A stretch of DNA of 64,000 nucleotides from Bradyrhizobium sp. AZCC 1610 (GTDB taxonomy: Bacteria; Pseudomonadota; Alphaproteobacteria; Rhizobiales; Xanthobacteraceae). Positions within the stretch are counted from its first letter, which is position 1, and each line of letters begins with the position of its first letter. The DNA lies in contig NZ_JAZHRR010000001.1 of NCBI RefSeq assembly GCF_036924515.1, positions 3,505,001 to 3,569,000 on the forward strand, in the 5' to 3' direction. The notes under the pieces were generated by a model that was not told where the DNA came from, did not search any database, and was given only the letters and a program-made list of their open reading frames with translations. A program made the translations under genes and the position numbers. Shown one piece after another: positions 15,407 through 31,147 of the stretch.

Positions 15407-18139
15407 ATGGCTTCAACCGGCACCACCTCATTTCGGATTGCGTCCGCCTTCCGCGGCGGTCCGATCCGCTGGTTGATCCTGGGCGGCACGCTCCTGATCG
15501 CCGCCATCGCCATCGGCGCGACCATCATGGCCGGAAATTTCCGCGAGCGCGCGCTGCGCAACAGCGAACGCGAGCTGGAAAACACCGTGCTGCTGCTCGC
15601 CCGCCATTTCGACCAGCAGCTCGAAGACTTCCAGGTCGTGCAGAAGGACATGATCGCCTTCATGCGTTCCAGCGGCATCGCGACCGTGGAGAATTACAAG
15701 CGGCGGATGTCCGGCCATGACATCCATCTGATGCTGAAATCCAAGATCGAGGCGCTGTCCTATGTCGGCGGCATCAACATCTTCGACGCCGAGGGCAACC
15801 TGATCAACGCATCGATCGCCTGGCCGGCGCCGCCGGTCAACTCGGCGGACCGCGCCTTCTTCAAGACCTTCAAGTCCGGCGCGCAATCGCCGGAGATGCT
15901 GGTCGAGCCGGTCTATAGCCGCATCACCGGCGCCTGGACCACGGTGATCGCGCGCAAGATCACCGGGCCGAAAGGCGAATTCCTCGGCGTCATCGGCCGC
16001 GGCATCGAACCCGTCAATTTCGAAAAGTTCTTCACAACCGTAGCGCTCGGACCCGGCGCCACCATCGCCATGCACCACAGCGACGGCACGCTGCTGGCCC
16101 GTTACCCGCATGTGGCGGATATAATCGGCAAGAACTTCAAGAGCGGCCCGGCCGCCCAGCGGCAGATCTTCGAGCAGCCCCGCAGCACTTCGCGCCTCAC
16201 CAGCCCGATCGACCGCGAGGACCGGCTGATCTCGTCGCGCGCGCTGACGAATTTTCCGCTTCTGATCATCGCTTCGACCACGACATCGGCCGCACTGGCC
16301 GACTGGCGCGAGCAGATCGGAATCCTGATCACGATCGCCGGACTTTCCGTGCTGGCGATTGCCGCCCTGCTGCTTCTTGTCGTCCGCAAGCTTTCGCACC
16401 AGCACCGCGCGTCCAAGCAGCGGCTGTCGCTGGAAAAGCAGCGCCTCGACACCGCCGTCAGCAACATGACGCAAGGCCTGCTGCTGTTCGATGCGAAGCA
16501 GAATCTCATCATCTGCAACAAGCGATATCTCGATATGTACGGCCTCTCGGCCGACGTGGTGAAGCCCGGTTGCAGCTTCCGCGAGGTGATCGCCCACCGC
16601 AAGGAAACCGGCTCGTTCGTCGGCGACATCGATCATTACCTCGAGCTGGTGCTGCGCGACATCTCGCACCGCAACGTCATGGTGATATCGACGCCCGACG
16701 GACGTTCGATCCAGATCGTCAACGAGCCGGTGCCGGACGGCGGATGGCTGGCGACCCATGAAGATATCACCGAGCGCCGCCGCGCCGAGGAGCGCATCAC
16801 CCACCTCGCCCATTACGACGCGCTGACCGACCTGCCGAACCGCGCGCTGTTCCACGAACGGCTCAAGCGCGAATTGTCCCACGCCGCGCCGGACCGGCAA
16901 CTGGCGGTGCTCTATATCGACATCGACGAATTCAAGAGCGTCAACGATTCGCTCGGCCACATGATCGGCGACGAGCTTTTGAAATCGGTCGCGTCGAGCC
17001 TCGCTGCTTGCGCGCGGAAAACCGATTTCGTGGCCCGGCTCGGCGGCGACGAGTTCGCCATCGTCCAGACCGGGATCGAGGATACCGACGACGTGATGAA
17101 GCTCGTCAGCCGCATCTTCGAGGCGATCCGCATCCCCTATCAGTGCCTCGGCCATCAGGTGACCACCGACGCCAGTATCAGCATCGCGCTGGCGCCGCGC
17201 GACGGTTCCGATATCGACCAGATCCTGAAGAACGCGGATCTGGCGATGTACGCGGCCAAGGCCGCCGGCCGCCGCACCTATCGCTTCTTCGAAACGGAAA
17301 TGGAGGCCGAGGTCCGCGCCCGCCGCAGCCTGGAAATGGACCTGCGCCAGGCGCTCGTCGACGGCGGCTTCGAGGTCTACTACCAGCCCTGCCTCGACCT
17401 GCAGACCAATGCGATCACCGGCTGCGAGGCGCTGGTGCGCTGGCGCCATCCGCAGCGCGGCATGATTTCGCCCGCCGAGTTCGTGCCCCTTGCCGAGGAC
17501 ACCGGCCTGATCAACCAGCTCGGCGAGTGGGTGCTGACCACTGCCTGCAAGGAAGCGGTGAGCTGGCCCGGCACTATCAGGCTCGCGGTCAACGTCTCGC
17601 CGGTTCAATTCAGGAGCGGCATGCTGGCGCTGAAGGTGATGGCGGCGCTGGCGGCATCCGGCCTCGCCGCCAGCCGCCTGGAGCTCGAGATCACCGAAGC
17701 CGTGCTCATCCGCGACGACGAGGCGGCGCTGGCCGTTCTGCACGACCTCCGGGCCATCGGGGTTCGTATTGCACTCGACGATTTCGGCACCGGCTATTCC
17801 TCGCTGAGCTATCTGCAGCGTTTTCCGTTCGACAAGATTAAGATCGACCGCTGCTTCATCACCGACATCGCCGAGCCGGAAGGATCGTCCAGCATCGTGC
17901 AGGCCGTGGTGACCATCGCCGCCGACCGCCACATGACGACGACGGCCGAAGGCGTCGAGACAGAGCAGCAGCGCGACTTGCTGCGCGAACTCGGCTGTTC
18001 GGAAATGCAGGGCTACCTGTTCAGCCCGCCGAAGCCGGCGGCGGAGATCAGGCCGCTGCTGTTTGCGGACCGGCAGGGACCCGCGGCGGTGCGCCCGAGC
18101 CGCGCCCGCAGACGCAAGCCGGTTGTGCGGACGGCGTAG
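15407..18139 (+). CDS. dCACHE-PAS-GGDEF-EAL cyclic-di-GMP signalling protein
   Basis: The membrane sensor is predicted to make and break cyclic di-GMP. A first membrane helix (about residues 19-42) and a second (about 300-325) enclose a periplasmic dCACHE ligand-binding region. A PAS domain follows (about 340-460, NMTQGLLLFDAKQNLIICN), then GGDEF (about 465-625) and EAL (about 645-890). The GGDEF motif is intact at residue 545 and preceded by an RKTD inhibitory site with the canonical five-residue spacing. The EAL motif (CEALVRWRHP), the metal-binding LDDFGTGYSS and AEGVET are also intact. I choose the ATG at 15407 over 15344. Confidence 0.93.
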   Translation: MASTGTTSFRIASAFRGGPIRWLILGGTLLIAAIAIGATIMAGNFRERALRNSERELENTVLLLARHFDQQLEDFQVVQKDMIAFMRSSGIATVENYKRRMSGHDIHLMLKSKIEALSYVGGINIFDAEGNLINASIAWPAPPVNSADRAFFKTFKSGAQSPEMLVEPVYSRITGAWTTVIARKITGPKGEFLGVIGRGIEPVNFEKFFTTVALGPGATIAMHHSDGTLLARYPHVADIIGKNFKSGPAAQRQIFEQPRSTSRLTSPIDREDRLISSRALTNFPLLIIASTTTSAALADWREQIGILITIAGLSVLAIAALLLLVVRKLSHQHRASKQRLSLEKQRLDTAVSNMTQGLLLFDAKQNLIICNKRYLDMYGLSADVVKPGCSFREVIAHRKETGSFVGDIDHYLELVLRDISHRNVMVISTPDGRSIQIVNEPVPDGGWLATHEDITERRRAEERITHLAHYDALTDLPNRALFHERLKRELSHAAPDRQLAVLYIDIDEFKSVNDSLGHMIGDELLKSVASSLAACARKTDFVARLGGDEFAIVQTGIEDTDDVMKLVSRIFEAIRIPYQCLGHQVTTDASISIALAPRDGSDIDQILKNADLAMYAAKAAGRRTYRFFETEMEAEVRARRSLEMDLRQALVDGGFEVYYQPCLDLQTNAITGCEALVRWRHPQRGMISPAEFVPLAEDTGLINQLGEWVLTTACKEAVSWPGTIRLAVNVSPVQFRSGMLALKVMAALAASGLAASRLELEITEAVLIRDDEAALAVLHDLRAIGVRIALDDFGTGYSSLSYLQRFPFDKIKIDRCFITDIAEPEGSSSIVQAVVTIAADRHMTTTAEGVETEQQRDLLRELGCSEMQGYLFSPPKPAAEIRPLLFADRQGPAAVRPSRARRRKPVVRTA

Positions 18140-18166
18140 GATTTTCGAAGCGACGCTGCTTGTTGC

Positions 18167-18251
18167 CGTCATTGCGAGCCAAGCGAAGCAATCCATCGCG
18201 CGGCATATGCTTGACGAAATCATGGATTGCTTCGCTTCGCTCGCAATGACG
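18167..18251. repeat. 30-base inverted repeat (REP-like element)
   Basis: The left arm 18167-18196 and the right arm 18222-18251 are reverse complements at 29 of 30 positions; the arms begin CGTCATTGCGAGC and end GCTCGCAATGACG. The 25-base spacer would form the loop. The sequence matches my memory of a very common palindrome in Bradyrhizobiaceae intergenic DNA. Being just after the GGDEF-EAL stop, it may protect or terminate that transcript. Confidence 0.75.
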
Positions 18252-18300
18252 TGGAGAGTTCTTCGATTCAATTTTCAAGCAGCCGACCAGATGCGCGTCC

Positions 18301-18464
18301 GCATTCCCGCGGCGCGTTTCGCCCGAGTTGTGCGAAAACCTTTCGCCCATGAGAGGGCGCAGGGAATGCCGGGTGCTTTGCTGCACCCGCGGTCTCGTGT
18401 GCAAGATGCACTCAAGAATGCGCACACGAGCATACAGGTACAGCCGGAGCAGCCCGGCATTCCC
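18301..18464 (+). repeat. branched palindromic element, possible structured RNA or mobile non-coding repeat
   Basis: GGGAATGCCGGG at 18362-18373 pairs perfectly with CCCGGCATTCCC at 18453-18464. Inside lie the hairpin GGGTGC/GCACCC (18371-18376 with 18383-18388) and the hairpin CTCGTGTGC/GCACACGAG (18394-18402 with 18422-18430). GCATTCCC at 18301-18308 could compete for the outer 5' arm. The result is a multibranched fold that no coding frame explains. I remember this block as a dispersed repeat in Bradyrhizobium relatives. Confidence 0.55.
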
Positions 18465-18536
18465 CGCGCAATGGTTTGACGGCTTATGCCGTGATCTCCC
18501 CGGAGACGAATTCCTCTTGCCTCCGTCGCTGGCGGA

Positions 18537-19034
18537 TTGACGGTTCGCATTGCCCGGTTGAGCTTTGCAAACCTCCGCCAACTTGACGCCAGCCACGGGC
18601 GCCAGAACCACACGGTTTTGCCGTACGCAGCTTCCTCCGCCAAAAACTTCAACCAGCCAAGTGCCGGCCAACCGAAGATCTGGCGGAAGCGTTTAAGCGC
18701 CGTTCGTCTGCGCGCGATGTTCGCTCACGGAAGCCCGCCCTGCGAACACGTCCACGCGCCTGACGCTGCCGCGTCCACCGCAACCCGCCCCAACGTTCGT
18801 GACGATGGCCAACGCCCCTCTTCTCGGGACGGGATGGCGGGAGTTGTAGGGGTGATTTGGGTCAGTGGCGAAGCGGAATATTTTTACAACCGAGACTGGA
18901 CGGGGCAAATCACCTTGAAGTTGTTACTGAAAATCGCGCAAACGCGCACGCCAAATCAGCTCGTAGCCCACACATCGAAGCGCGCCATCTCATGCTTCAG
19001 CGGTATTATTAGATGCCCTTACCGCAGCAAGTAG
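18537..19034 (+). pseudogene. decayed open frame belonging to the dispersed repeat; probably not a functional gene
   Basis: The frame continues the short frame 18328-18540 with a stop between them and reads as a mixture of basic and Ser/Ala-rich sequence without domains or a signal. Its conceptual product resembles, from memory, hypothetical proteins repeatedly annotated from the same Bradyrhizobium repeat. Its 3' end runs into the double-hairpin repeat at 19032. I list it so that it is not mistaken for a real gene. Confidence 0.4.
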
Positions 19035-19111
19035 GCCCGCATGAGCGCAGCAATATGCGGCGATAAAGTAAGGCCCCCGATGTCGATTCGCTCATCCGGG
19101 CTACGCTTGCT
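19032..19111. repeat. double-hairpin dispersed repeat, copy 1
   Basis: The unit has a first arm pair around CCCGCATGAGCGCAGC...ATGCGG and a second around CCGATGTCGATTCGCTCATCCGGG, followed by CTACGCTTGCT. Related copies lie at 19825-19896, 21500-21579 and 27133-27210. Here it sits 3' of the minus-strand TonB-like gene, where a repeat of this kind could end transcription. Confidence 0.7.
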
Positions 19112-19119
19112 CCGCGAGG

Positions 19120-19584
19120 TCAAGAAGAAGGCGGACTGAGAGGAGCCCGCGACGGCTTTGATCGCGAACGCGCAGGCCGCACGGGACTGTTGCAATCGGC
19201 TTTCGCTTCAACGGCCAGCGCCTCTTGCATTGTAAAAGCAAACACGACCGGCTGCGTAAATGTCAGGCGTGATTGACGAATCGTCGATGAAAAGGGCGAA
19301 AACGGTTGAGCTTGGCGAACAGCCGCCAACGCCGCCTCATTGAGTTCATTGAAGCAGGATGGCCTTGTGATTTTGCTGTCCAAGAGACGCCCGGTCGAAT
19401 CGATCGTGAACGTGATGAAGGCCTGCCCGATTTCATGTCGCGCTATCGCGCCTGGCGGATACTTCTTTTGCTTCTCGATTTGCGCGCTAACCGACAGGCC
19501 GTATTCCATTTGCGGGGTAGCCTGGGCATGGGCCGGAATCCGGCAACTGATGAAAACGAAAACTACAAAACAGACGCGAAGCAT
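19120..19584 (-). CDS. secreted TonB C-terminal-domain protein
   Basis: The 154-residue product has a signal peptide (about residues 1-20, ending AHAQA) and a TonB-C-like domain: a pair of residues around YPPGAIARHEIGQAFITFTIDSTGRLLDSKITRPS, then NEAALAAVRQAQPFSP. There is no N-terminal anchor and no Pro-rich spanning linker, so it is not a standard energy transducer; many Bradyrhizobium genomes carry such periplasmic single-domain forms. The C-terminal tail is basic and Ser/Pro-rich. The ATG at 19584 follows AGGTAGG. Confidence 0.8.
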   Translation of the reverse strand: MLRVCFVVFVFISCRIPAHAQATPQMEYGLSVSAQIEKQKKYPPGAIARHEIGQAFITFTIDSTGRLLDSKITRPSCFNELNEAALAAVRQAQPFSPFSSTIRQSRLTFTQPVVFAFTMQEALAVEAKADCNSPVRPARSRSKPSRAPLSPPSS

Positions 19585-20058
19585 TGCCTACCTTTTGCAG
19601 CGCCTTCAGCGCCGTGGATGACCTGTCTCGAAACACCCGCGCGTCTCTCGAGGTATTCGTATCAGACTATTAGCCTAAGTATTCCCACTTGGCAGGCTTT
19701 AATTACGGTCTGGTGCATTCGACTGGCCTTTCTCCCACAGATTGTATTCCATGGACGCGACGACATCGCTGAAGCGATCAGTTTGCGCGCCTCGCTGACG
19801 TGAGCCGGCAAAATCTGCGGCTGAGTAGCCCGTATGCGCGCAGCGATATGCGGGCATAAATTAACCCAGATGTCGCGCTCATCTGGGCTACGCTTGGTCT
19901 CAACGGTCGCACCGCCGATACCGGTTGTGACCTCACCTCGTCTCACAGCCCGCCGAGATCGGAGGGGAATACAACGAAGCCGATTTCCGATCAGCCCCCC
20001 GTTAGGGGGTTGCGGCAAAAAAATTCATTTGGTGTGCAGCCGAATTGGATGAGGCCGG
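19585..20058. other. 474-base intergenic stretch with one repeat copy and no gene
   Basis: Apart from the second copy of the double-hairpin repeat, I see no supported gene. The 118-codon minus-strand frame across it reads through the repeat and lacks any recognisable feature. Confidence 0.6.
19825..19896. repeat. double-hairpin dispersed repeat, copy 2
   Basis: The unit starts GTAGCCCGTATGCGCGCAGC, contains ATATGCGGGC, and then CCCAGATG/CATCTGGG as the second hairpin, ending CTACGCTTG. It has compensated changes relative to the other copies (CCCAGAT...ATCTGGG instead of CCGGAT...ATCCGG), which keep the second stem intact. Confidence 0.7.
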
Positions 20059-20640
20059 TTAGCGGCGGGAATCTCTTTCGGCCTGTGCTCTCTTGTTCGC
20101 CTGTGACACCCGTCCAATTGTTGACCGCGGGAGTTTGATACTTCGTCGGCGACTCGGAATCGCCTTCATGCCTTCATGGGAAGTTGGCTGATTTGTCGGG
20201 CGGGAGAATTGCTGTGCCCTCCGAAGAGAAAGCGCTCGCCGAGCCGCTTCTCCCAGTTCCCTCCTCGCCTCAAATTTTTGGAGACGTGCGAGCTCCTTGT
20301 TAACCCGCTTCAGGGCAGCCACGAAAACCTGCTTACGATGGAGAGAATGCTCGGCAGTCCCCGAAACGCTTTGGCCTCGCGGCTCGGCGGTGCCTTTGCT
20401 GATCCGACGCCGCTGGAAGGCGAGCGTACGCTCCCTGTCCCGGAGCTTTCTGAGCGATGATTTCAGGTTTTCAAGTGTCGCGCGATCCGCATCACCAATT
20501 TCGGGGTGATGAGAGGTCTGTATGAGCGCTTTCTCATCGTGATTCAAGATACTTAGCTCGAACTTGCAGGGTGCAGACATTTGACATCTCATACGTGCAA
20601 TTCGTTGCCTCGCCGTCGCTGCGCTAGCCAACTTTGCCAA
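20059..20640 (-). CDS. conserved hypothetical basic protein, 193 residues
   Basis: The product is strongly basic and mostly helical, with a coiled-coil-like middle (LENLKSSLRKLRDRERTLAFQRR and FVAALKRVNKELARLQKFEARREL) and a basic tail. I recall paralogues with the same skeleton (a KFELS.L..DE start, RERTLA, RKQVF.AALKRVNKE) as frequent unknowns in Bradyrhizobium. It has no signal peptide. The TTG at 20640 is used; Met codons at 20589 and 20580 are alternatives. Its location among repeats suggests it belongs to the accessory pool. A nucleic-acid-binding role is only a guess from charge. Confidence 0.65.
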   Translation of the reverse strand: MAKLASAATARQRIARMRCQMSAPCKFELSILNHDEKALIQTSHHPEIGDADRATLENLKSSLRKLRDRERTLAFQRRRISKGTAEPRGQSVSGTAEHSLHRKQVFVAALKRVNKELARLQKFEARRELGEAARRALSLRRAQQFSRPTNQPTSHEGMKAIPSRRRSIKLPRSTIGRVSQANKRAQAERDSRR

Positions 20641-20683
20641 TCATATCCACGGTGCGTTTCCGGGGCTCTCACGATAGCTTGAT

Positions 20684-20709
20684 GAATTACGGAATTACGG
20701 GAATTACGG
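20684..20709. repeat. tandem GAATTACGG, three units
   Basis: GAATTACG, GAATTACGG and GAATTACGG follow one another and run into the left end of the 74-base mini-element. They look like duplications of that element's outer end sequence. Confidence 0.6.
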
Positions 20710-20778
20710 TGACAGTCTACTCAATTGCCGTCGCGCCCTTTGTAACATCGCCTGCGAATTGAGTGCACTGGCACCGTA
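20705..20778. mobile_element. 74-base non-coding mini-element with RAYT-type inverted ends
   Basis: The left end at 20705-20726 (TACGGTGACAGTCTACTCAATT) and the right end at 20757-20778 (AATTGAGTGCACTGGCACCGTA) are near-perfect reverse complements around a 30-base core. The same ends bound the transposase gene at 21618-22351. This is most simply a miniature, non-autonomous relative mobilised by the transposase, comparable to REP/BIME sequences and their RAYT. Confidence 0.65.
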
Positions 20779-20848
20779 ATGCGAAGTACACGAGGTGGTC
20801 ACGCATCTCCGTGAGTCGCTGGTGCTGCCGATAGTGATGACCGTCATC

Positions 20849-21058
20849 TCACTGGATGGTCGCGGCGCATCGGCACGCATCGTGGTAGGCGATCACGGAC
20901 CGCGACTGCTTCAGTAGTTGAGGGATCAGGGACGCGCTGTCCCTGACCTCCGCCACCATCAGCGCGACGAGGGCGATGAAAACCAGAGCCTCGGGCCAGA
21001 CCTGTTCTGGTATGCTTGGCCTCGACGATGTCGCCGCGCGCATCACGGCGGTTCCCAT
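20849..21058 (-). CDS. possible small hydrophobic protein, 69 residues
   Basis: The frame has a high share of G or C in third codon positions, as real genes here do, and a central hydrophobic stretch (EALVFIALVALMVAEV) with a C-terminal part containing two Cys. A second minus-strand frame (20844-21074) overlaps it and looks like a shadow. I know no homologue and no ribosome binding site is obvious, so the call is tentative. Confidence 0.3.
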   Translation of the reverse strand: MGTAVMRAATSSRPSIPEQVWPEALVFIALVALMVAEVRDSASLIPQLLKQSRSVIAYHDACRCAATIQ

Positions 21059-21163
21059 CAGGAATTATTCCCACCTTTTAGGAGTTCCAACTCAACTGTT
21101 ACTTGTGTCGTGTTCAGGTTGTGCTGTAATGGCGATGCAAGGTCCAAAAAATGGGACACTCCA

Positions 21164-21430
21164 ATGATCATTCCCCAGCAAACCGACCTCGGACGCCGCG
21201 TGGTCTACCGGCCTCCGGGGGCTGGACGCAGGTACGGCGTCATCAGCGCGATATTCACCCGCCGCGTGTTGGTCCGGTTCGATCACCAGCACTACAACAG
21301 CCGCTTGGTCAACGCAGCCTATCTGGAGTTTGTCAAACGACCGGCCGAGGCCGTGCCGCGTTCACATGGGGCGCGGAGCAGGCAGCAATCGCCAGCTATT
21401 CCCGGCCTGCCGATACCCGGCGAATCCTAG
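21164..21430 (+). CDS. small basic KOW-like hypothetical protein
   Basis: From the ATG at 21164 the 88-residue product begins MIIPQQTDLGRRVVYRP and continues GRRYGVISAIFTRRVLVRFD, a pattern (G.rV.Y.....GvI......VlVRfD) that recalls small beta-barrel KOW-like proteins found in phage and rhizobial genomes. The frame is open upstream to 20918, but that part has no supporting features. It is followed by the third double-hairpin repeat. The role is unknown. Confidence 0.45.
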   Translation: MIIPQQTDLGRRVVYRPPGAGRRYGVISAIFTRRVLVRFDHQHYNSRLVNAAYLEFVKRPAEAVPRSHGARSRQQSPAIPGLPIPGES

Positions 21431-21499
21431 CCAACAGTCTCGGCGGTAAGGATCGAACTGCATCCCTGGAATGAGACACGTGAATTTCTGTGAGAGCAT

Positions 21500-21579
21500 G
21501 TAGCCGCATGAGCGCAGCGATATGCGGGATAAAACAAAACCCGGATGTCGCCTTCGCTCATCCGGGTTCCGCTTGCTAG
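21500..21579. repeat. double-hairpin dispersed repeat, copy 3
   Basis: The first hairpin is CCGCATGAGCGCAGCGATATGCGG and the second is CCCGGATG...CATCCGGG, then TTCCGCTTGCTAG. Its last bases are the stop of the gene remnant on the minus strand (next entry). This is the same relation as copy 4 has to the gene ending at 27211. Confidence 0.75.
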
Positions 21580-21615
21580 AGCTTCGCCTTCAGCGACAGC
21601 GGAATCCGAAAACGA
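21576..21615 (-). pseudogene. 13-codon 3' remnant of a paralogue of the gene at 27211-28374
   Basis: Read on the minus strand, the bases encode RFRIPLSLKAKL and a stop. The intact gene at 27211 ends TFRVPLTLKARL and a stop, and both stops abut a copy of the double-hairpin repeat. The RAYT element begins 3-4 bases further on, so the rest of this paralogue was lost, or displaced, at the junction with that element. Confidence 0.6.
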
Positions 21616-21617
21616 AC

Positions 21618-22352
21618 TACGGTGACAGTGTACTCAATTGATTCTTCGCGCTGTGGTTGGCATCCTGCCGTATGGCTCGCCTCGCTCGTGTCGTCATTCC
21701 CGACATTCCGCACCACGTGACGCAACGTGGCAACGGCCGGGCACGAACTTTCTTCGGCAATGACGACTACGCGCTTTATCGCGACTTGCTCGCAGCGTCC
21801 TGCCGCGCCGCAGGAGTGGAAATTTGGGCGTGGTGTCTGATGCCAAACCATGTGCATCTGATTCTCGTGCCGTCCGACGCGGACGGGTTGCGCCGCGCGC
21901 TGGCGCCGGTGCATCGCCGCTATGCCGGCATCATCCACGCACGCCGCAAGCGGACCGGCCATTTCTGGCAGGGGCGTTTCGGATGCGTCGCCATGGACGA
22001 GGCGCATCTCGCAGCGGCGCTGCGCTATGTATCGCTCAATCCCGTACGGGCGCGTCTCGTCAGCCGCGCGCGCGACTGGCGCTGGTCCAGCGTGCGCGCA
22101 CAACTCAGCGGGCGTCACGACGGCGTCACGGCTCTGGCGCCAGTCCATGAGCGCTATCCGGATTTCGCCAATTTCCTTTCCGAAGAGCCGGATGCTGGCG
22201 TGATCGAGCGGCTGCGCGGCGCGGAGAGCATCGGCCGGCCGCTCGGCAATCGAAAATTCCTCGACGCCATCGAGTACAAGACGCGGCGCGTCCTCAAGCC
22301 CGCGAAACGCGGCCCGAAGCCACGGGACGAATTAAGTGCACTGTCACCTTAA
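21618..22352 (+). mobile_element. RAYT element (IS200/IS605-related REP-associated tyrosine transposase unit)
   Basis: The ends are TACGGTGACAGTGTACTCAATT at 21618-21639 and AATTAAGTGCACTGTCACCTTA at 22330-22351, complementary at 19 of 22 positions. They enclose one transposase gene. Two shorter relatives with the same ends lie at 20705-20778 and 24149-24202. The right end codes for the last residues and the stop of the transposase. Confidence 0.75.
21672..22352 (+). CDS. REP-associated tyrosine transposase (TnpA-REP, Y1 HUH family)
   Basis: The 226-residue product begins MARLARVVIPDIPHHVTQRGNG, the usual start of this family, so I choose the ATG at 21672 over 21657. The HUH metal site is in MPNHVHLI (about residues 57-64), the GHFWQGRF segment is typical, and the catalytic-Tyr helix is in ALRYVSLNPVRA. 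Such enzymes cut single-stranded DNA at short hairpins and are thought to spread REP-like sequences. The C terminus is encoded inside the right terminal repeat. Confidence 0.9.
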   Translation: MARLARVVIPDIPHHVTQRGNGRARTFFGNDDYALYRDLLAASCRAAGVEIWAWCLMPNHVHLILVPSDADGLRRALAPVHRRYAGIIHARRKRTGHFWQGRFGCVAMDEAHLAAALRYVSLNPVRARLVSRARDWRWSSVRAQLSGRHDGVTALAPVHERYPDFANFLSEEPDAGVIERLRGAESIGRPLGNRKFLDAIEYKTRRVLKPAKRGPKPRDELSALSP

Positions 22353-22438
22353 TTCGAACATTATACCCAAAATTCTTCAGTTCGGCGATAACGAGCCCCC
22401 TTTACTGCATCAGCAGCCCCAACGCTTAGTTGCTGGCC

Positions 22439-23600
22439 TCAAGCGCGTAATGCAAGGCTCGCGAGCAGAGCTACAAGCTCACCTTGTCTCGAAACGCCAA
22501 GCTTGACGAAAACACGCTTCAGAACGTTGCGAACGGTTTCCTCGGAAAGATTGAGACGTTCCGCTGCCTCGCGCGGCGGCAGACCGGCACCTACCAAGGA
22601 CGCAACGCGCGCTTCACCAAGGGTCAGATTCAGCGAGTCCCGCACAATCGCAGGATCGGTGGGTTCTCCAATCTTCGGCTCAGCAATCAGAACGATAACG
22701 TGAGTGTGGTTGAAGAACTGCTCAGAGGCTGCAGCTTTGGCTGTTATAGGCAACAAATGCACGACGAGGGGGTATGAAGATGATCGCCGAGGCACGAGAA
22801 TTGGTTTGGCGTCATTGAAACTACTAACTCCTGCCTCAAGTAGTGCATCGATAGCTGCTTCGCTCCTAAGCCGAAGATTTCCGTAGCCGATGCATAACTT
22901 TCCTTGCAAAAGGTAGATATCCTCTCCGAGCAGGTGCTTGGCAGCTAAGTTCGAGAAGACGACGCGTCCCATCGAGTCGAGAGTAAACACGGCGACACCG
23001 ACCCGCGCCAAGCGCCTCCTCCAGGCCAAGTCGAGCAAACTCAGAGTCGAAGAGGCGGATCGAGAGATTGAACGACTTCTCGATATGGCGTCCGACCACG
23101 GTGAGAAGCTTCAGATCGGCCTCAGAATGCGGATCAGAATCGAGGCGGCGCTGAAGGCTCAATGCTACGCCCACCTGCGGGTTCGGGGAGGTTGCGATTC
23201 CAGCAATTCCGCCAAGGCCATACTTCGCGCGAAACTCGGTGAAAAATGGATCGGTTCGAAATTCATCAGGTGTGCAAAGATGTTGATCCGCAAACGCCTC
23301 GCCACTGAAGAAGTATCCGCGCTCCACGGCGCGGCTGGCAAGAGGATCCCTGGATGACCAATCTTGCTCGTATTCGAGTTGAGCTGCGACGAGGCTCTCG
23401 GAAACTATTGTGCCAAAAGAGCCATCATCTCGACGCCATAGAAGAACAGCCCCCGCATCGTTAAAGATGTTGGCGATCTTGCCTAGCGTTCCCGGCCAGA
23501 GCTGGGGGTTCGGCGCGGCATCGTAAATGGACTCAATTGCCTCCAACAAGGCGCTACTGGGATCATCCACAAAGCTTGGTTGCAAACGCGCTTCCTTCAA
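22439..23600 (-). pseudogene. LuxR-family transcriptional regulator split by a frameshift near 23010
   Basis: The N-terminal part (23600 to about 23010) reads LLEAIESIYDAAPNPQLWPGTL and continues as a PAS/GAF-like sensory region. The C-terminal part (to 22439) contains FTLDSMGRVVFSN and a LuxR-type helix-turn-helix (NLTLGEARVASLVGAGLPPREAAERLNLSEETVRN, given here as the end of the recognition region). The two frames overlap at 22866-23038. Removing one base of the GG in CTTGGCGCG (about 23010) joins EEAL to ARVGVAVFTLD and restores about 386 residues. The start is a TTG with no strong ribosome binding site. Either a pseudogene or a base-calling error. Confidence 0.8.
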
Positions 23601-23759
23601 GGATTTAGTATCGTCAACTGCAAACGATCCGTCATTTAAATTATTTTCAGATTAGACCCAAATGGGTCATGCAGGTCAATCCAAATCAAGTCGATGATGC
23701 TCCGAAGTATTCGCGCCGCTTGGCGTGATTATCTGCAAGGCCGACCAAGGGAGAAAGAT

Positions 23760-24005
23760 ATGAATAGGATTTCGTTTAGTCTGTTAACGGCGGCTCTCGC
23801 TATGTTTACTCTTTTGATCTTAGAACCAATTTTTTCGTCTAGCGCATACGCGAGCAAAATGAACGGTAAAGGTTCCGGGTGCTCTGATCGCTCTTGCAGA
23901 GGTATCAATTCACCTAATTTCGGAAAGAAGAAGAGCGGCAAAAAGACCACCTCTTCGATCGACTTACGCATCGATCGGAGCCGGAATGGTTCGCTCGCTG
24001 CCTGA
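23760..24005 (+). CDS. small secreted hypothetical protein, 81 residues
   Basis: The start at ATG 23760 follows AGGGAGAAAG. A signal peptide (about residues 1-31, ending SSAYA) precedes a short basic mature part with a Cys pair (GCSDRSCRG) and a Lys/Ser-rich tail. The longer frame from 23694 lacks a ribosome binding site. It lies between the LuxR remnant and the desaturase, and is lower in GC than the core genes. Its composition suggests a cationic secreted peptide; the function is unknown. Confidence 0.65.
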   Translation: MNRISFSLLTAALAMFTLLILEPIFSSSAYASKMNGKGSGCSDRSCRGINSPNFGKKKSGKKTTSSIDLRIDRSRNGSLAA

Positions 24006-24148
24006 TAGAGTTTCGACCCCAAGAGGAGAGACCGCCTTCGCGGCGGCCGTGCTTTTCAAGCAAACATCAACCCCCAGCCCATTCTTCGCCAACGTAACTC
24101 GCCGACAACTCGCGTTCGCAGCGGCCCGTATCAAGGACAACGAGCAGT

Positions 24149-24202
24149 TGCGGTGACGGTGCATTCAGCATCGCTTGCCGAATTAAGTGCGCTGTCACCG
24201 TA
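24149..24202. mobile_element. 54-base degenerate mini-element with RAYT-type ends
   Basis: The right end AATTAAGTGCGCTGTCACCGTA (24181-24202) matches the RAYT element's end well, while the left end (24149-24168, TGCGGTGACGGTGCATTCAG) is weaker. It ends 20 bases before the start of the desaturase gene and may supply or disrupt its leader. Confidence 0.55.
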
Positions 24203-24222
24203 ACGCAAAATGGCATCCCGAA

Positions 24223-25233
24223 ATGCTCACTGCATTATTAACAGTGGTTCGCAAGGTAGTGACGGCCCGCACGGTTTCAGTGGACAGTTTCTTTCAGCCT
24301 GTAATCTTTGAAGGCGTCAAGTTCGGCGGGCTGCCCGCAATTAGAAAGCGTGTCGAGAACGGACTACTCGTCGGAATTCCCCTATTGGGAAGCTTTTGGG
24401 CCGGACGTCATATAGTGCAGCACGGCGTTACCTGGATTGATATTTCTGCTTTCGTGCTCTTTTACGTTCTTGTCGGTCTGGGCGTCGCCCTCGGCCTGCA
24501 TCGCTATTTCTCGCACAAGAGTTTTGAAACCACCCCAGCAATCGCATTTTTGTTGGGTGCGCTTGGCTCTATGGCTTTTCAGGGGTCTATTGCACGTTGG
24601 GTTGTAGATCACAGGCGCCACCACGCCCACACAGATCAGTTCGGAGATGTGCACTCGCCGCTTGTTGACGAATGGGGCTCTTCTCTCAGTGGACTTCAGG
24701 GAATTTGGCACGCCCATGTCGGTTGGTTGTTTGATTGCACCACGACAGATGTCAGTGTTTACGGAGCAAGCGTTACTGACAACAAGCTGATAGCCTTTTT
24801 CCATCGAACCCACTGGATCTGGCCCGCAATTTCCTTGGCCATGCCTTACGTGTACGGCTACGTGCTCGCCGGTCCTGAGGCAGCATGGAGTGCGATGCTT
24901 ATCGGCGGATGCCTGCGCACCACGGTACTTCACAATGTAGTCTGGGGCGTCAATTCTATCGGCCATCTCTTCGGCGAAGAGGCTTATTCGCAAGGCAACG
25001 GAAGCAAGAACAATCGAATTCTAGCAATGCTGACGTTTGGTGACGGCTGGCACAATAACCATCACCGCTTTCCGCGCTCAGCTTTTCATGGGCTCACAGA
25101 CGGGCAGCTCGACGTAAACGGTCACATCATCACGTTGCTGGAAAAACTTGGACTAGTCTGGAACGTTATAAGATTGCCGCGAGATCGATCAGAGACGCCC
25201 GATAGCATCGCGATTGGTGCCAAGCATGGATGA
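24223..25233 (+). CDS. acyl-CoA / fatty-acid desaturase (delta-9 type, membrane di-iron)
   Basis: The enzyme would insert a cis double bond in a saturated acyl chain using O2 and electrons. The 336-residue protein has four membrane segments and all three histidine boxes: HRYFSH (residues 93-98), HRRHH (130-134) and HNNHH (277-281), in the order and spacing of acyl-CoA desaturases. I start it at ATG 24223, since the GTG at 24187 lies in the mini-element. Its stop overlaps the start of the methyltransferase by 8 bases (ATGGATGA), so the two are translationally coupled. Confidence 0.92.
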   Translation: MLTALLTVVRKVVTARTVSVDSFFQPVIFEGVKFGGLPAIRKRVENGLLVGIPLLGSFWAGRHIVQHGVTWIDISAFVLFYVLVGLGVALGLHRYFSHKSFETTPAIAFLLGALGSMAFQGSIARWVVDHRRHHAHTDQFGDVHSPLVDEWGSSLSGLQGIWHAHVGWLFDCTTTDVSVYGASVTDNKLIAFFHRTHWIWPAISLAMPYVYGYVLAGPEAAWSAMLIGGCLRTTVLHNVVWGVNSIGHLFGEEAYSQGNGSKNNRILAMLTFGDGWHNNHHRFPRSAFHGLTDGQLDVNGHIITLLEKLGLVWNVIRLPRDRSETPDSIAIGAKHG

Positions 25234-26155
25234 TCGAGTTCTAATTCCAACGAGATCGGCTATTGCTGCCCCCCTCGAGCGTCTGATGAAATTTGTGGAA
25301 AAGGGCGGGCCTCAACCGATCGAATATGACGAACTTTCAACCTTGTTTGATGAAATTGCCATACGCCGTACGGAAGGTGATCTCGAGTCCATCATAGCGT
25401 TCGCCCAAGACTCAAAGGGAGCGTTCAACTCGACTCAAACAAATCAAGGTTTCGTTTGTATTCGCCCACATGGATACCACGGGGACTTTGAAATCATCGA
25501 TCGCATCTACACCAATTGGGTATCCCCCGACCCTACACTCGAACGCTGGGATCATTTCTTTCAGAGAAGTTCAGCGGCCAAAGCCGTGCGGGCACGGAAA
25601 GAATATTGCCATGCCCTACTCCGCGATATCGCGAACTGCCGTCCAAGCGGGGCTCAGGTATTGAACGTTGCGAGCGGTCCTGGCAGGGACATATTCGAGT
25701 TCTTTGTCAAGCACGCCAATCTAGCGCACAGGCTCCAGATTCATTTTGTTGAGCAGGATGGCAAGGCATTAGAGCACGCCAGTAAGCTTCTCACGCCGTT
25801 CCTCAGCCAGATAACGCTAGAGCACAACAATATCCTTCGTTGGCGAACCAACCAGCGATTCGATTTGATCTGGTGCGCTGGGCTTTTTGACTATCTGACT
25901 GATGCTTTGTTTGTTCGATTGCTCCGAAAATTGGCGTGCATGCTCTGCCCCGGAGGAGAACTAGTTGTCGGAAACTTCTCCAACCGCAATGTGCATCGCA
26001 ACTATATGGAGTTCGGCGGGTGGCATCTTTTTCACCGAGACAGTGCAAAGCTCCTATCGCTTTTCAAACGGGCTAACATCGCAGACGCTTCAGCGCGCAT
26101 TGGTGAGGAGCCAAATGGGGTCAATCTGTTCTTACACATCCGCAAAGCGTCATAG
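25226..26155 (+). CDS. SAM-dependent methyltransferase resembling PhcB (3-hydroxy fatty acid methyl ester synthesis)
   Basis: The 309-residue product has an N-terminal helical part with the phrase RPHGYHGDFEIIDRIY and a linker WDHFFQRSSAAKAVRARKEY, followed by a class I methyltransferase fold: SAM motif I VLNVASGPGRD (about residues 145-155), HFVEQDG (motif II) and FDLIWCAGLFDYL (motif IV). The N-terminal phrase is what I remember from the family annotated as extracellular factor 3-hydroxypalmitic acid methyl ester biosynthesis proteins (Ralstonia PhcB). The ATG at 25226 overlaps the desaturase stop. A fatty-acyl substrate is inferred from family and coupling. Confidence 0.8.
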   Translation: MDDRVLIPTRSAIAAPLERLMKFVEKGGPQPIEYDELSTLFDEIAIRRTEGDLESIIAFAQDSKGAFNSTQTNQGFVCIRPHGYHGDFEIIDRIYTNWVSPDPTLERWDHFFQRSSAAKAVRARKEYCHALLRDIANCRPSGAQVLNVASGPGRDIFEFFVKHANLAHRLQIHFVEQDGKALEHASKLLTPFLSQITLEHNNILRWRTNQRFDLIWCAGLFDYLTDALFVRLLRKLACMLCPGGELVVGNFSNRNVHRNYMEFGGWHLFHRDSAKLLSLFKRANIADASARIGEEPNGVNLFLHIRKAS

Positions 26156-26296
26156 TAACGCGCAACGTGGTCAGCCAACCTTCTTGTCGTAGCCCATTTG
26201 GGTCACGACAAGCGTCCCGAGACAATCATATAAAGCTATGAGGACCAGCGTGCCTTCGAGGTCTCGCCGCAGGTCGGAATGGAGGGGGATTTAAGT

Positions 26297-27118
26297 ATGA
26301 TTTTTTGCCGATTTGTTGCCTGCTACATCGCAGTGCTTGTCGTGGTGCTTTCGGTAAAAACAGCATCCGCAGATGTCGTTTTAGGCCCCGTGACTTACGG
26401 CGGCAGCTATTCCGGTCAATGGGTTGATGGCAACGGCACCGGGCAGAACTACAGTGGGAGCTTAACCGCGGGAAACAATCTGGACATCACACACTCGGGC
26501 TTGAGTACCTCTTCCTTCAGGCTTCACACAGCCCTTACTCCGGCGCCCTTTTTCGAAATAACTGCTGCGGCCTCTGCGCCGGGATATATCCCAGGAACGG
26601 GATATGTTGGAGGAGCTGCCGCGACCGCATACTTCACTATGCAGTACCAAATCTACATAGCCGGGCAGCCGGGAGTCGTGCACACCCATATAAATGCCTT
26701 GGGCGCCGTGACTACCGAAGGAAACGTGGCGGTGCTTAGGATTGGCAACGCCAACGCCTCAGTAGGCAGTTACTCGTGGTCGACTGGTGCAGGCGCACAC
26801 AGTGGCGAGACCGGACTGAATTTTGCAGTTAATGGCAGCTACGCCTTTTTGACCAACACAATCTACAATGTGATGCTGGAGGGCACCGTTTCTGCTGGAT
26901 GCGGAGCATTCGAGGCCTGCAGCGCAAGTAATCACACGATGATCGATCCTGTCTTCACTGCGCCCGACGGTTATCAAATCCAACTCAGTCATGGCGTAGG
27001 TAACTCTATCGCTGCTGTCCCCGAGCCAGCTACCTGGGCAATGATCATCCTGGGTTTTGCTGGTGTTGGCTTCTTGGCGCAACGGCGGAAGAGCAAGGCA
27101 AGCTTCAACACCATTTGA
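26297..27118 (+). CDS. PEPxxWA-CTERM secreted protein
   Basis: The 273-residue product has a signal peptide (about residues 1-24, ending ASA), a Gly/Ser/Thr-rich beta-type mature part with one close Cys pair (GCGAFEACS), and a C-terminal sorting tail: [20 protein letters not shown] then RRKSK. That tail (PEP motif, membrane helix, basic cluster) is the alphaproteobacterial PEPxxWA-CTERM signal for an exosortase-like system. No exosortase gene is in the window. The ATG at 26297 has GGAGGGGG upstream. The role may be surface or exopolysaccharide associated. Confidence 0.88.
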
Positions 27119-27132
27119 ACCTGCAAGCGCGT

Positions 27133-27210
27133 CCCCCGCATGTGCGCCGCGACATGCGGGAGTCAAGACTCCGGATGTCCTTAGCTGATCCGGGCCGCGC
27201 TTGCCGCTAG
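27133..27210. repeat. double-hairpin dispersed repeat, copy 4
   Basis: CCCGCATGTGCGCCGCGACATGCGGG forms the first hairpin and CCGGATGTCCTTAGCTGATCCGG the second. It lies between the convergent PEP-CTERM gene and the gene at 27211, where it can end both transcripts. Its right edge touches the stop of the 27211 gene. Confidence 0.75.
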
Positions 27211-28374
27211 CTAGAGTCGCGCCTTCAGCGTCAGCGGCACCCGAAACGTCCTGAAGCCTTCGATGTCGGGAAACCACTCTGCTGCTTCGCGCGAAGCCAG
27301 CGTCAGGACCGCGGCCGGGACTTCGCCGCTGATCAGCCGCTCGATCGCGCCGGCTTTTACTTCGCTGAACTGGACTTCCGCGGCTCCGGCCGCCATCAAC
27401 GCGGCGCTGACGCGTCCGCTCGATGCGGATTGTTTCTCCTCGATCGCGATGTTCTTGTTGTTCAGATCGGATAACGAATTGATCTCCGGACGCGCCAGGA
27501 CAAGCGCCACCAGATTGTCCGAGCTGTCTGTCGATCCGGATGCAGTCTTGCCGGAATCGTTGGCCTCACCGGCTTCTGCGCCGGGATTGTCCGATTTGTT
27601 GGCCGCCTCCCGTCCCGTCCCGATTGCCGTGACGAGATCGGCCATTCCCGTCGCTTCCACGACCTGCTGCTGAATTGTGCGGGGCGCCAACGCGGGAGCA
27701 TCGGCGGCTGTGGCCGGCAACGCGGCGGTTTCGGACGTGGCGGGCGGCGCGGCGATCTCGAGCGTGGCTGGCGGCGGCAGGGTGACCTCGGGCTTCGCTT
27801 CGGACTTCACCTCAGACTTGACCTCAGACTTGGGGGCCTCCGTGGGCTGCGACGCGGCGATAGATGCTGCCTGCCCCGGCTCCGGCCCGTCGGAGCTTTT
27901 CAATTGACGCTCCGGCTCCTGAGTTCCTGCGACGGTCTTTTCAACGGCTTTTTCTCGAGTCGCTGTCGCCGTGGCCACCGGCACTTCCTTCCTGGTTGTT
28001 GGATATGCAGCATTGGTGGCGGCCCTCCTGGTGTGCGACGCCTTGGTGTTCAACGTCTTGGCGTTCGACGCCGCGATGCCGGCACGCGGCGCCGGGCTGG
28101 AAACCGCTGCAGGCTGCCTTGCCACGCGCGGGCGGGCCGCGGGTTCTAATCTTTCTATTTCCGCCTCAGCCGGTACCACGACGCTGGTCTCGCGTTTCTC
28201 GCGGTGCCGGGCAGACAATGCCCGGTCAGACCAGGCCATGTAGGACTGACACGCCCTGTTGCACGGCAGCCCATCGATATAAACGACGCCGGGCGAATCG
28301 AGCGGATTTGCTTGCAGGGCTCCACTCGAACAGAGGGACAACATCAGGGTCAGCAAGGTCCATTTTCTCGACAT
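27211..28374 (-). CDS. secreted protein with Ala/Pro/Lys-rich linker and C-terminal periplasmic-binding-like domain
   Basis: A signal peptide (about residues 1-22) is followed by a short conserved-looking segment with two Cys (VVYIDGLPCNRACQSYMAW), a long low-complexity linker with KSEVKSEVKSEAKPEV tandem units (about 75-230), and a C-terminal part of about 100 residues resembling half of a periplasmic binding fold (LARPEINSLSDLNNKNIAIE, then GAIERLISGEVPAAVLTLAS). I choose ATG 28374 over 28395 because the signal peptide starts there. A 3' remnant of a paralogue is at 21576. The function is unknown. Confidence 0.75.
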   Translation of the reverse strand: MSRKWTLLTLMLSLCSSGALQANPLDSPGVVYIDGLPCNRACQSYMAWSDRALSARHREKRETSVVVPAEAEIERLEPAARPRVARQPAAVSSPAPRAGIAASNAKTLNTKASHTRRAATNAAYPTTRKEVPVATATATREKAVEKTVAGTQEPERQLKSSDGPEPGQAASIAASQPTEAPKSEVKSEVKSEAKPEVTLPPPATLEIAAPPATSETAALPATAADAPALAPRTIQQQVVEATGMADLVTAIGTGREAANKSDNPGAEAGEANDSGKTASGSTDSSDNLVALVLARPEINSLSDLNNKNIAIEEKQSASSGRVSAALMAAGAAEVQFSEVKAGAIERLISGEVPAAVLTLASREAAEWFPDIEGFRTFRVPLTLKARL

Positions 28375-28780
28375 AACTACTCCGTTTGAACGCACATGAA
28401 GCGGGAACCGGCTTCGTGAAAGATCATGCCGCGCGAGCTACGTTTGGATGGAGACGGAGTTTCAAAAAAGAGGTGTTGTTTTCGGATCGCTGCGCACGCC
28501 TTGAGGGATGCCTTTTCAGCGACCGCCGCGCGACAGATTCGGAATGAACTATCGGCAATCAGTTTTCTCCAGCAATGAGTGCTTCAACTGAGCGCAATTT
28601 GGAGTGCAGCTAGCCAGAGGGCGGTGGCACGCGCTGCGCCGGTATCCAGAAGGCCTTGCGTCATGACGATGATCCAGCCATGGATTAACCGTCCGGAACG
28701 CCATAACATAACGCCATAACATAATATGGATGTGTTCTTGACTTGGGCGTGTCGCCGTCGCCTGCAAGGGGGGTCATCGC
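28375..28780. other. divergent intergenic region with a short tandem repeat
   Basis: The 405 bases separate two divergent genes. I see one tandem repeat, ACGCCATAACATA twice at 28698-28723, which is unusually A/T-rich for this DNA and lies 57 bases upstream of the next start, so it may be part of a promoter. Nothing else is recognisable. Confidence 0.5.
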
Positions 28781-29785
28781 ATGGATGAATTGTCGCGTCG
28801 CAACTTGGTGACGGTCGCCGCGATCACCATGGCATCGACCGTTGCGTTCGCAGGCGCCTCGCTTATGTCGACCGCCCATGCCGCTGACTTTCCGACGCGC
28901 TCCATCACGCTGGTCGTGCCGTACCCGGCCGGCGGCGGCGTCGATGCGATGGCGCGCGTGGTGGCGCAAAAGCTGTCGGACGCTTTCCGCCAGACCGTGA
29001 CCGTCGACAACCGCGGCGGTGGCGGGGGCACCATCGGCACGCGCGCGGTCGCGCGCGCCGCGCCGGACGGCTACACGCTGCTGCTCGGCCACACCGGGAC
29101 GCTGTCGATCAACCCAAGCCTCTACACCAGGCTCGGCATGGATCCGCGCAAGGAATTCGCGCCGATCGGCCTCGTTGCCTCGATGCCGGTGGCCCTGCTC
29201 GCCCATCCGTCGTTTCCTGCGAAGACGGTCGCCGAATTGATCGCGCTTGCGCGGAAGGCGCCGGGCACACTCAATATCGGCACGTCGCCTGTCGGCACCG
29301 GCGGTTACATGTGCGCCGAACTGTTCAAGGCCGAGGCCGGGATCGATATCGCGATCATCCCCTACAAGGGCACGGCGCCGGTCATGAACGATCTGCTCGG
29401 CGGCCACGTGCCGGTCGCGTTCGGCGTGCTGCCGCCGGCACTGGGCAATATCGCGGCCGGCCAACTGCGCGCCATCGCCGTCACCAGCAAGACGCGCTTC
29501 TCGCTATTGCCCGATGTGCCGACTTTCGACGAGTCGGGACTGCCCGGCTTCGAAGCCGTGTTGCATTACGGGCTGCTTGCGCCGCACGGCACGCCACCTG
29601 AGATCATCGACATCCTCAGCGCCGAGTTGCGCAAACTCGGCAACGATCCGGAGGCGCAGAAACGCATTCGTCTCGAAGGTGGCGATCCCCTCAGCTCGAC
29701 GCCGGCCGAATATGCCGACGACATCGATCGGGAAGAAAAGAAGTGGAGCAAGCTCGTCCATCAGCTCGGGCTGAAGGTGGAATAG
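28781..29785 (+). CDS. TctC/Bug-family tripartite tricarboxylate transporter substrate-binding protein
   Basis: The 334-residue periplasmic receptor has a signal peptide (twin-arginine-like RRNL then a hydrophobic stretch, to about residue 35) and family motifs VPYPAGGGVDAMAR, VDNRGGGGGTIGTRAVARAAPDGYTLL (in part), IPYKGTAPVMNDLLGGHV and LPDVPTFDESGLPG. The ligand is probably a carboxylate. No TctA/TctB membrane partners are adjacent, so it is an orphan receptor, as many Bug proteins are. The ATG at 28781 follows AAGGGGGG. Confidence 0.92.
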   Translation: MDELSRRNLVTVAAITMASTVAFAGASLMSTAHAADFPTRSITLVVPYPAGGGVDAMARVVAQKLSDAFRQTVTVDNRGGGGGTIGTRAVARAAPDGYTLLLGHTGTLSINPSLYTRLGMDPRKEFAPIGLVASMPVALLAHPSFPAKTVAELIALARKAPGTLNIGTSPVGTGGYMCAELFKAEAGIDIAIIPYKGTAPVMNDLLGGHVPVAFGVLPPALGNIAAGQLRAIAVTSKTRFSLLPDVPTFDESGLPGFEAVLHYGLLAPHGTPPEIIDILSAELRKLGNDPEAQKRIRLEGGDPLSSTPAEYADDIDREEKKWSKLVHQLGLKVE

Positions 29786-29812
29786 CGCCGGTCTCCAGGC
29801 TGCAAGCGACCG

Positions 29813-31147
29813 CTAGTTCGGCACCGCCCGCTTCGCCATCGCCGGCCCGTTCGCATTCACCGTCACGCCGCGCAGCAAATTGAACGCCGCGTTCAGCGCC
29901 GTGTCGTCCTTCTCGTTCGTCGGAACCCAGGCTTGCGAGCCGGCCTGCTCGGCGCCGTCGGCGGCGAGGTGGCCGTGCATCGAGGCTTCGCCCTTCGGCT
30001 CGGAGCGGCTCTTGAGTTCATCCGGCACGTCCTGCAGCACCTCGATGTCGGGCGCGATGCCCTGGGCCTGGATCGAGCGGCCCGACGGCGTGAAGTAGCG
30101 CGCCGTGGTCAGCGCCAGCGCGCCATTGCCTGATCCGAGCGGAATGATGGTCTGCACCGAGCCCTTGCCGAAGGTGCGCGAGCCGATCAGGGTGGCGCGC
30201 TTGTGGTCGCGCAGTGCGCCGGCCACGATTTCGGACGCGGAGGCCGAGCCGCCGTTGATCAGCACCACCAGCGGCTTGCCTTTGGTGATGTCGCCGCCGC
30301 GCGCGCTGAAGCGCTGGGTTTCCTCCGAGGTGCGGCCGCGCGTCGAGACCACCTCGCCGCGCGTCATGAAGGCGCTCGACACGGATACGGCCTGGTCGAG
30401 CAAGCCGCCGGGATTGTTGCGGAGATCGACGACGTAGCCCGCGAGCTTGTCGGCCGGAATCTCCTTGGCGATGCTGGCGATGGCCTTCTTCAGCCCATCG
30501 GTGGTCTGTTCGTTGAAGCGGGTGATCCTGATGTAGCCGATATCGCCGCTGTCGGTCTTGTAGCGGACCGGCCGTACCCGGATGATCTCGCGGACGATGG
30601 CAATATCGATCGGCGCGGCGGAACCCTTGCGCGCGACCTTCAGCCGGATCTTGCTGTTGGCGGGGCCCTTCATCCGGCTCACCGCCTGTTCGAGGGTCAT
30701 GCCCTGAATCTGCTCGTCGTCGATCTGGGTGATCACGTCGCCCGACAGCATGCCGGCCTTGGCCGCGGGCGTCTCGTCGATCGGCGTCACCACCTTGACG
30801 AGGCCGTCTTCCATCGTGACCTCGATGCCGAGCCCGCCGAACTCGCCATGGGTGGTCTCCTGCATGTCGCTCCAGCCCTTCTCATTCATGTAGCGCGAAT
30901 GAGGATCGAGCGCGGAGATCATGCCGTTGATGGCGCCTTCCATCAGCTTGGAATCGTCGGGCTTCTCGACGTAGCTGGTCTTGATCCGCTCGAACACGTT
31001 GCCGAACAAATTGAGCTGGCTGTAGGCGTCGGAACGGGCTGCGGCCTTTGCCGCCGCCACCAGACTGGCCCCCTGCGGTCCCGTCACGAGAACGGTCAGA
31101 CACGCGCCCGTCACCGTGCCGAGAACAAAGGCAAAATTCCTGCGCAT
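29813..31147 (-). CDS. ctpA: carboxy-terminal processing protease (S41 family)
   Basis: The 444-residue periplasmic Ser-Lys protease trims the C termini of exported proteins. A signal or anchor segment (about residues 5-25) is followed by a PDZ domain (about 90-175; FGGLGIEVTMEDGLVKVVTP) and the S41 catalytic domain with Ser near residue 297 in NGGSASASEIVAG and Lys near 327 in SRTFGKGSVQT. I choose ATG 31147, which has GGGA upstream, over 31225. It lies apart from the envC/rlmH neighbours I remember for it in other rhizobia. Confidence 0.93.
   Translation of the reverse strand: MRRNFAFVLGTVTGACLTVLVTGPQGASLVAAAKAAARSDAYSQLNLFGNVFERIKTSYVEKPDDSKLMEGAINGMISALDPHSRYMNEKGWSDMQETTHGEFGGLGIEVTMEDGLVKVVTPIDETPAAKAGMLSGDVITQIDDEQIQGMTLEQAVSRMKGPANSKIRLKVARKGSAAPIDIAIVREIIRVRPVRYKTDSGDIGYIRITRFNEQTTDGLKKAIASIAKEIPADKLAGYVVDLRNNPGGLLDQAVSVSSAFMTRGEVVSTRGRTSEETQRFSARGGDITKGKPLVVLINGGSASASEIVAGALRDHKRATLIGSRTFGKGSVQTIIPLGSGNGALALTTARYFTPSGRSIQAQGIAPDIEVLQDVPDELKSRSEPKGEASMHGHLAADGAEQAGSQAWVPTNEKDDTALNAAFNLLRGVTVNANGPAMAKRAVPN

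Follow-up and report, generated by a model that had tools for sequence, protein, structure and literature searches.

The window analysed here is a stretch of 64,000 nucleotides from Bradyrhizobium sp. AZCC 1610, and it sits inside one 7.75-Mb contig of that genome (G000). Within it lie two genes on the same strand, one for a desaturase and one for a class I SAM methyltransferase (MT), set among a regulator gene, a transposase and several repeats (Table 1). The desaturase frame opens with an ATG at 24223 and closes with a TGA at 25231–25233, and the MT frame runs from an ATG at 25226 to a TAG at 26153–26155. The 8-base overlap that a preliminary description of this DNA had claimed is borne out, and from it we infer that the two genes may be translationally coupled. 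A scan of positions 18000–30000 against Rfam gave no match, a promoter scan returned 0 sites where 2.1 were expected, and terminator-like sites numbered 4, against 3.4 in shuffled sequence, i.e., no excess. In the portion of the open-licence PMC literature that was accessible, no description of such a desaturase/MT pair was found.

Table 1. Features in and around the desaturase/MT pair (positions in the window)
Feature	Position	Strand	Remarks
6.4-kb stretch with the pair	20781..27203		in the relative G031, replaced by 9 bp
43-nt direct repeat, left copy	21569..21611		84%; duplicates the 3′ end of gene 27211–28395
REP-associated tyrosine transposase (Y1)	21657..22352	+	inverted 27-nt arms 21613–21639 / 22330–22356
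LuxR-type regulator	22439..23600	-	divergent; two frames, split near 23010
Small ORF, 81 aa	23760..24005	+	secreted-looking by eye, no Pfam match
REP-like repeat copy	24179..24203	-	just upstream of the desaturase start
SCD-type acyl-CoA desaturase gene	24223..25233	+	336 aa, nine conserved His
8-bp reading-frame overlap	25226..25233	+	MT ATG precedes desaturase TGA
Class I SAM methyltransferase (MT) gene	25226..26155	+	309 aa; PhcB-homologous domain and N-terminal part of its own
PEPxxWA-CTERM sorting-domain protein gene	26279..27118	+	downstream of the pair
43-nt direct repeat, right copy	27204..27246		at the 3′ end of gene 27211–28395 (minus)

The first gene had been described as a fatty-acid desaturase with all three di-iron histidine boxes, and it can now be placed more closely. 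Its product matches PF00487 at 71 bits (cut-off 29.7) and contains HX4H, HX2HH and HX2HH boxes together with one more histidine (H93, H98, H130, H133, H134, H248, H277, H280 and H281); all nine are invariant in the 11 aligned rows, which comprise the window protein and 10 relatives. This is the nine-histidine, four-motif pattern of SCD-type acyl-CoA desaturases. The SCD-type proteins 4zyo and 4ymk, annotated as stearoyl-CoA Delta-9 desaturase, likewise match PF00487 and have nine histidines in register with those of the window protein, and the solved structure 4zyo matches the desaturase at E 1.5e-37; the boxes and the 4zyo register together identify the enzyme as SCD-type. It differs from the known SCD-type desaturases in belonging to a subgroup of its own and in being apparently coupled to an MT, and its closest homologues in the genus, at 35–41% identity, fall in a different clade. 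Desaturation of acyl chains by enzymes of this kind is oxygen-dependent, and by analogy we predict that the product of the first gene puts a double bond into an acyl chain.

The second product had been taken for a class I methyltransferase carrying an N-terminal phrase associated with proteins such as Ralstonia PhcB. It matches PF13649 at 32.4 bits (cut-off 27) and general SAM-methyltransferase models only weakly, and the phrase, RPHGYHGDFEIIDRIY, is present and well conserved among MT relatives. Residues about 78–306 make up a PhcB-homologous domain, and the N-terminal part, with GGPxPxEY, is the protein's own. Compared with a PhcB-type profile, the MT profile gave a probability of 99.9 and an E value of 3.8e-34 over 219 columns that include this phrase, which makes the MT a true homologue over the whole methyltransferase domain. 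The two proteins have the motifs P-x-GY-x-GD-[FY]-E, CAGLFDYLxD, ME..W.L.YR and GVN.F in common. PhcB belongs to the phcBSRQ quorum-sensing system of Ralstonia and Cupriavidus. Its reported products are methyl esters of 3-hydroxy fatty acids (PMC7912708).

Homologue of PhcB is nonetheless all that the MT is; it is not PhcB. A family-wide search returned MTs of 462–501 aa, each with a gene directly behind it whose product resembles, in its opening residues, one common histidine kinase (L100/L109, L101, L098/L110, L096 and L093/L112). At L109 the kinase and, farther on, a response regulator are confirmed by Pfam, and the frame between them is phcR-like by eye only. On account of the kinase-gene neighbour and of R22, which is common to four aligned PhcB-type proteins, we took L109, L101, L098, L096 and L093 as PhcB references; R22 is named as conserved in Ralstonia PhcB, with a mutant R22C, in PMC6989110. 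The five references form a clade of their own, with a support of 99 in a 101-row tree of the MT domain and of 100 in an 82-row quick tree. The MT clusters away from them, one of the outcomes by which the preliminary description would have its reading refuted, and a tree that forces the desaturase-paired MTs and PhcB into one clade is rejected (p-AU 0.0036), the paired set in that constraint including P0004, whose pairing was not seen. In the 36-row tree of that test the paired branch has a support of only 37, and the paired and other short MTs together have 99. The MT, at 309 aa against 462–501 aa in the four aligned PhcB-type proteins, lacks the ~200 extra N-terminal residues, without a Pfam match, that those proteins possess. 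Behind the PhcB-type genes comes one for a histidine kinase, whereas the window MT neighbours a desaturase, and no kinase or response-regulator gene follows it among the window neighbours scanned. Tree, architecture and gene context rule out that the MT is PhcB itself. Elsewhere in the family, a Desulfobacteraceae MT relative (L032, 5980–6891) is followed by a hybrid-kinase-like gene, with response-regulator-like genes around it, all judged by eye.

The preliminary description had also made recurrence of the pair in other genomes a test of its reading. A protein search gave 578 MT relatives and 3,492 desaturase relatives, and we drew on the best 120 of each (one of the desaturases is without a contig size). 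Among the matches listed, seven pairs of MT and desaturase clusters have identical longest-contig sizes (4105, 4910, 5438, 6991, 49386, 150027 and 209717 bp), and in each of these size-matched pairs at least one source is common to the MT and the desaturase. With contigs of at least 4 kb (66 MT, 59 desaturase), 7 coincidences were seen, where 1000 shifted controls gave 0.17 on average and never more than 3; the weaker control with all contig sizes has a mean of 1.3 and reached 7 in 1 of 1000 shifts. A second MT search added 78 new rows and two more size coincidences. The one at 33,649 bp has identical sources and was counted as an eighth pair; the other, at 2,238 bp (P0287/P0216), was not counted as a ninth further pair because its sources differ and short sizes coincide by chance.

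The paired MTs are also close relatives of one another. In the 101-row tree, which omits L031 (a near-copy), L095 (a frame with an unsure start) and L078 (no blast match), a 22-row clade (SH-aLRT 92), nested in a 60-row clade of short MTs (support 99), takes in the window MT, P0001 and the seven paired MTs; P0001, a 95% relative of the window MT, was treated as paired on the strength of that closeness, with no desaturase of its own seen. Once the eighth pair is added, the paired clade takes in 27 of the 82 rows of the quick tree (support 92), where the Devosia protein P0241 stands beside the paired P0103 (99). Thirteen MT clusters of the clade reach 4 kb or more in their longest contig; for eight of them a desaturase partner of equal contig size stands among the matches listed, and for the other five (P0001, P0004, P0006, P0013 and P0241) none does. 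The wider MT family is mostly without a desaturase, none being found by tblastn in L031–L034 or L090. Within the pairs, MT and desaturase distances covary, with r 0.855 for eight pairs (2 of 40,320 permutations as high) and r 0.834 for nine (40 of 362,880), the identity permutation being included in both counts; the pairs were chosen by resemblance to the window proteins, a choice that could raise the correlation slightly.

Given the contig-size coincidences, the single MT clade and the covarying distances, the desaturase and the MT appear to be a recurring, co-inherited two-gene unit, for which we infer adjacency, order and overlap elsewhere from the equal longest-contig sizes. Recurrence of the pair is, in other words, supported at the level of contigs: eight further MT/desaturase clusters, one clade and r 0.83–0.86.

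What such a unit would do can be proposed from the families of its two enzymes. We suggest, tentatively and rating it a little below an even chance, that it is a co-inherited metabolic cassette in which the product of the desaturase is then O-methylated by the MT, at a carboxyl or a hydroxyl group. The desaturase would place a cis double bond in a long acyl chain, a reaction taken over from the SCD family. Methyl transfer by class I methyltransferases is SAM-dependent, and the MT would then use SAM to methylate the unsaturated acyl product, most likely on oxygen; methylation at the carboxyl would yield an unsaturated methyl ester, and the hydroxyl would be the other site. That a fatty acid is O-methylated is extrapolated here from PhcB, which acts on 3-hydroxy fatty acids and forms only a distant clade. 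The scheme assigns a putative substrate, methylation site and product, and would have both enzymes act on one chain. By analogy, the most likely product of the cassette would be an unsaturated O-methylated acyl compound, possibly a methyl ester. A fatty-acid pathway is a plausible reading that the recurrence of the pair strengthens. In P0279, a PhcB-like MT on a single partial 3-kb contig, a KAS III C-terminal domain precedes the MT, a fusion that may hint at acyl chemistry and is suggestive only.

A different use of the same double bond would be for the MT to methylate carbon there, so that the desaturase supplies the chemical handle and the product is a branched or methylene fatty acid or the precursor of a furan fatty acid. 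A double bond is a natural substrate for C-methylation, and such a reaction would make more sense of the pairing than would an ester; UfaM, from a different family, is a known precedent. The window pair would share with UfaM and the CMAS-family lipid C-methyltransferases the sequence of a desaturation step and then a SAM-dependent methylation, but the MT has no match to PF02353 (CMAS) at E 0.01, so that we reject it as a member of the CMAS type. Only one of 61 aligned MT relatives gave a CMAS match, a weak one (E 2.2e-4), and the motifs in common are those of PhcB. We regard C-methylation as unlikely.

The preliminary description saw in the pair a possible source of a signal, with a LuxR-type gene just upstream. 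A LuxR-type gene is nearby, but it is frameshifted and divergent, and 622 bp, including the small plus-strand ORF, separate it from the desaturase start; it is probably a pseudogene, or else a sequence error. Its five nearest intact homologues in the genus, spread over 4 of the 40 other genomes searched, show 49–57% identity in the N-terminal part, and both halves of the window gene align as one frame to each of the five loci. Among these, L159 alone has an MT, with two PhcB-like MTs beside LuxR genes; in the other four none was found by tblastn at E 1e-5, and one of them, L160, has a 38% desaturase ~9.5 kb away. With the frameshift and a single MT-bearing locus of five, the LuxR gene is not borne out as a conserved partner of the pair. 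L159 itself, a small contig (G018:C1, 9.8 kb), has two LuxR genes and two PhcB-like MTs of other subfamilies, and one reading frame occurs at each of its ends, the two copies facing opposite ways.

Should an unsaturated fatty-acid methyl ester nonetheless be a diffusible signal with the nearby LuxR protein as its receptor, the homology of the MT to PhcB and the grouping of two such LuxR genes with two other PhcB-like MTs at L159 would fit, as would a PhcB-like MT cluster of 24 members (P0253) that carries a GGDEF domain, a fusion that is suggestive only. Against this stand the broken LuxR gene, the four homologous loci without an MT and the position of the MT outside the PhcB clade; moreover, the PhcS-like N-terminal 200 residues of the kinase were not found in the source genome, in a search that had no positive control. 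A signalling role for the pair is unsupported, and we consider this explanation improbable.

Equally doubtful, in our estimate, is that the MT's substrate for N- or O-methylation is a small molecule such as a lipid head group, while the desaturase adjusts the chain of the same lipid. Profile matches of the MT in the PDB are mostly to N- and general methyltransferases (best E 4e-10), and the best of them include phosphoethanolamine N-methyltransferases and NodS, as this explanation would have it; they also count against O-methylation of a fatty acid. These matches, however, are confined to the general SAM-binding region (profile about 104–256) and leave the N-terminal phrase and the C-terminal motifs unmatched.

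The pair is rare among the genomes sampled and recently acquired in the source genome. We looked for the MT in overlapping draws of genomes, none of which yielded the pair in another genome. None of the other genomes in the genus draw (146) has a match better than E 2e-20, and 45 of the 146 have any match at E 0.001. The MT is found in 0 of 168 other genomes of the family (E 1e-30) and 0 of 396 of the order (E 1e-25), and the best other match in the class draw (385) is at E 2e-26. A full-length relative appears in the phylum draw (398) only in G1222 (E 6e-102), whose locus, L090, has no desaturase. The order around G1170 was searched as well, with no match at E 1e-35 among 250 genomes, a result that shows little without a known positive. 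Plasmid records matched the MT in 127 cases, none covering 80% of the query, and the desaturase in 51, all below 60% identity; a viral collection gave 27 pattern matches and 0 relatives.

Measured against G031, the stretch 20781–27203 is an insertion. Both genes are absent by tblastn from the extracted region of G019. Their GC content is 0.53 (desaturase) and 0.51 (MT) against 0.64 for the rest, and their GC3 is 0.56 and 0.55 against 0.82–0.83 for two neighbours. The two copies of the 43-nt repeat (84%) bracket 21569–27246. Further REP-like copies lie near the transposase at 20701 and 20755. Outside the stretch, a TctC-type binding-protein gene (28781–29785) separates two genes that lie close together in G019 and G031, and tblastn found no tctC in the regions extracted from those two genomes. 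A foreign stretch with a transposase could bring together chance neighbours of no common function, but contig sharing beyond chance, and covariation among partners that are mutually only 42–63% (MT) and 50–75% (desaturase) identical, make this very improbable.

The preferred reading, a cassette for desaturation followed by O-methylation, bears on a family that is largely named by resemblance. Databases call many of the MT relatives "extracellular factor 3-hydroxypalmitic acid methyl ester biosynthesis protein," and in our tree that name is spread over several clades far from PhcB. To our knowledge, the PhcB-like MT family has almost no tested members outside PhcB. A clade that apparently travels with its own desaturase offers this family a concrete hint of a substrate, and a cassette of two genes is expressible in a laboratory strain. 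There is a small chance, in our view, that the pair represents an undescribed pathway, thinly spread over mostly uncultured bacteria, in which acyl desaturation and then methylation would produce a diffusible unsaturated lipid, either an acid methylated on its chain or a methyl ester distinct from both DSF and 3-OH-PAME. If that were true, the large PhcB-like MT family would produce lipid messengers in bacteria outside Ralstonia and its relatives.
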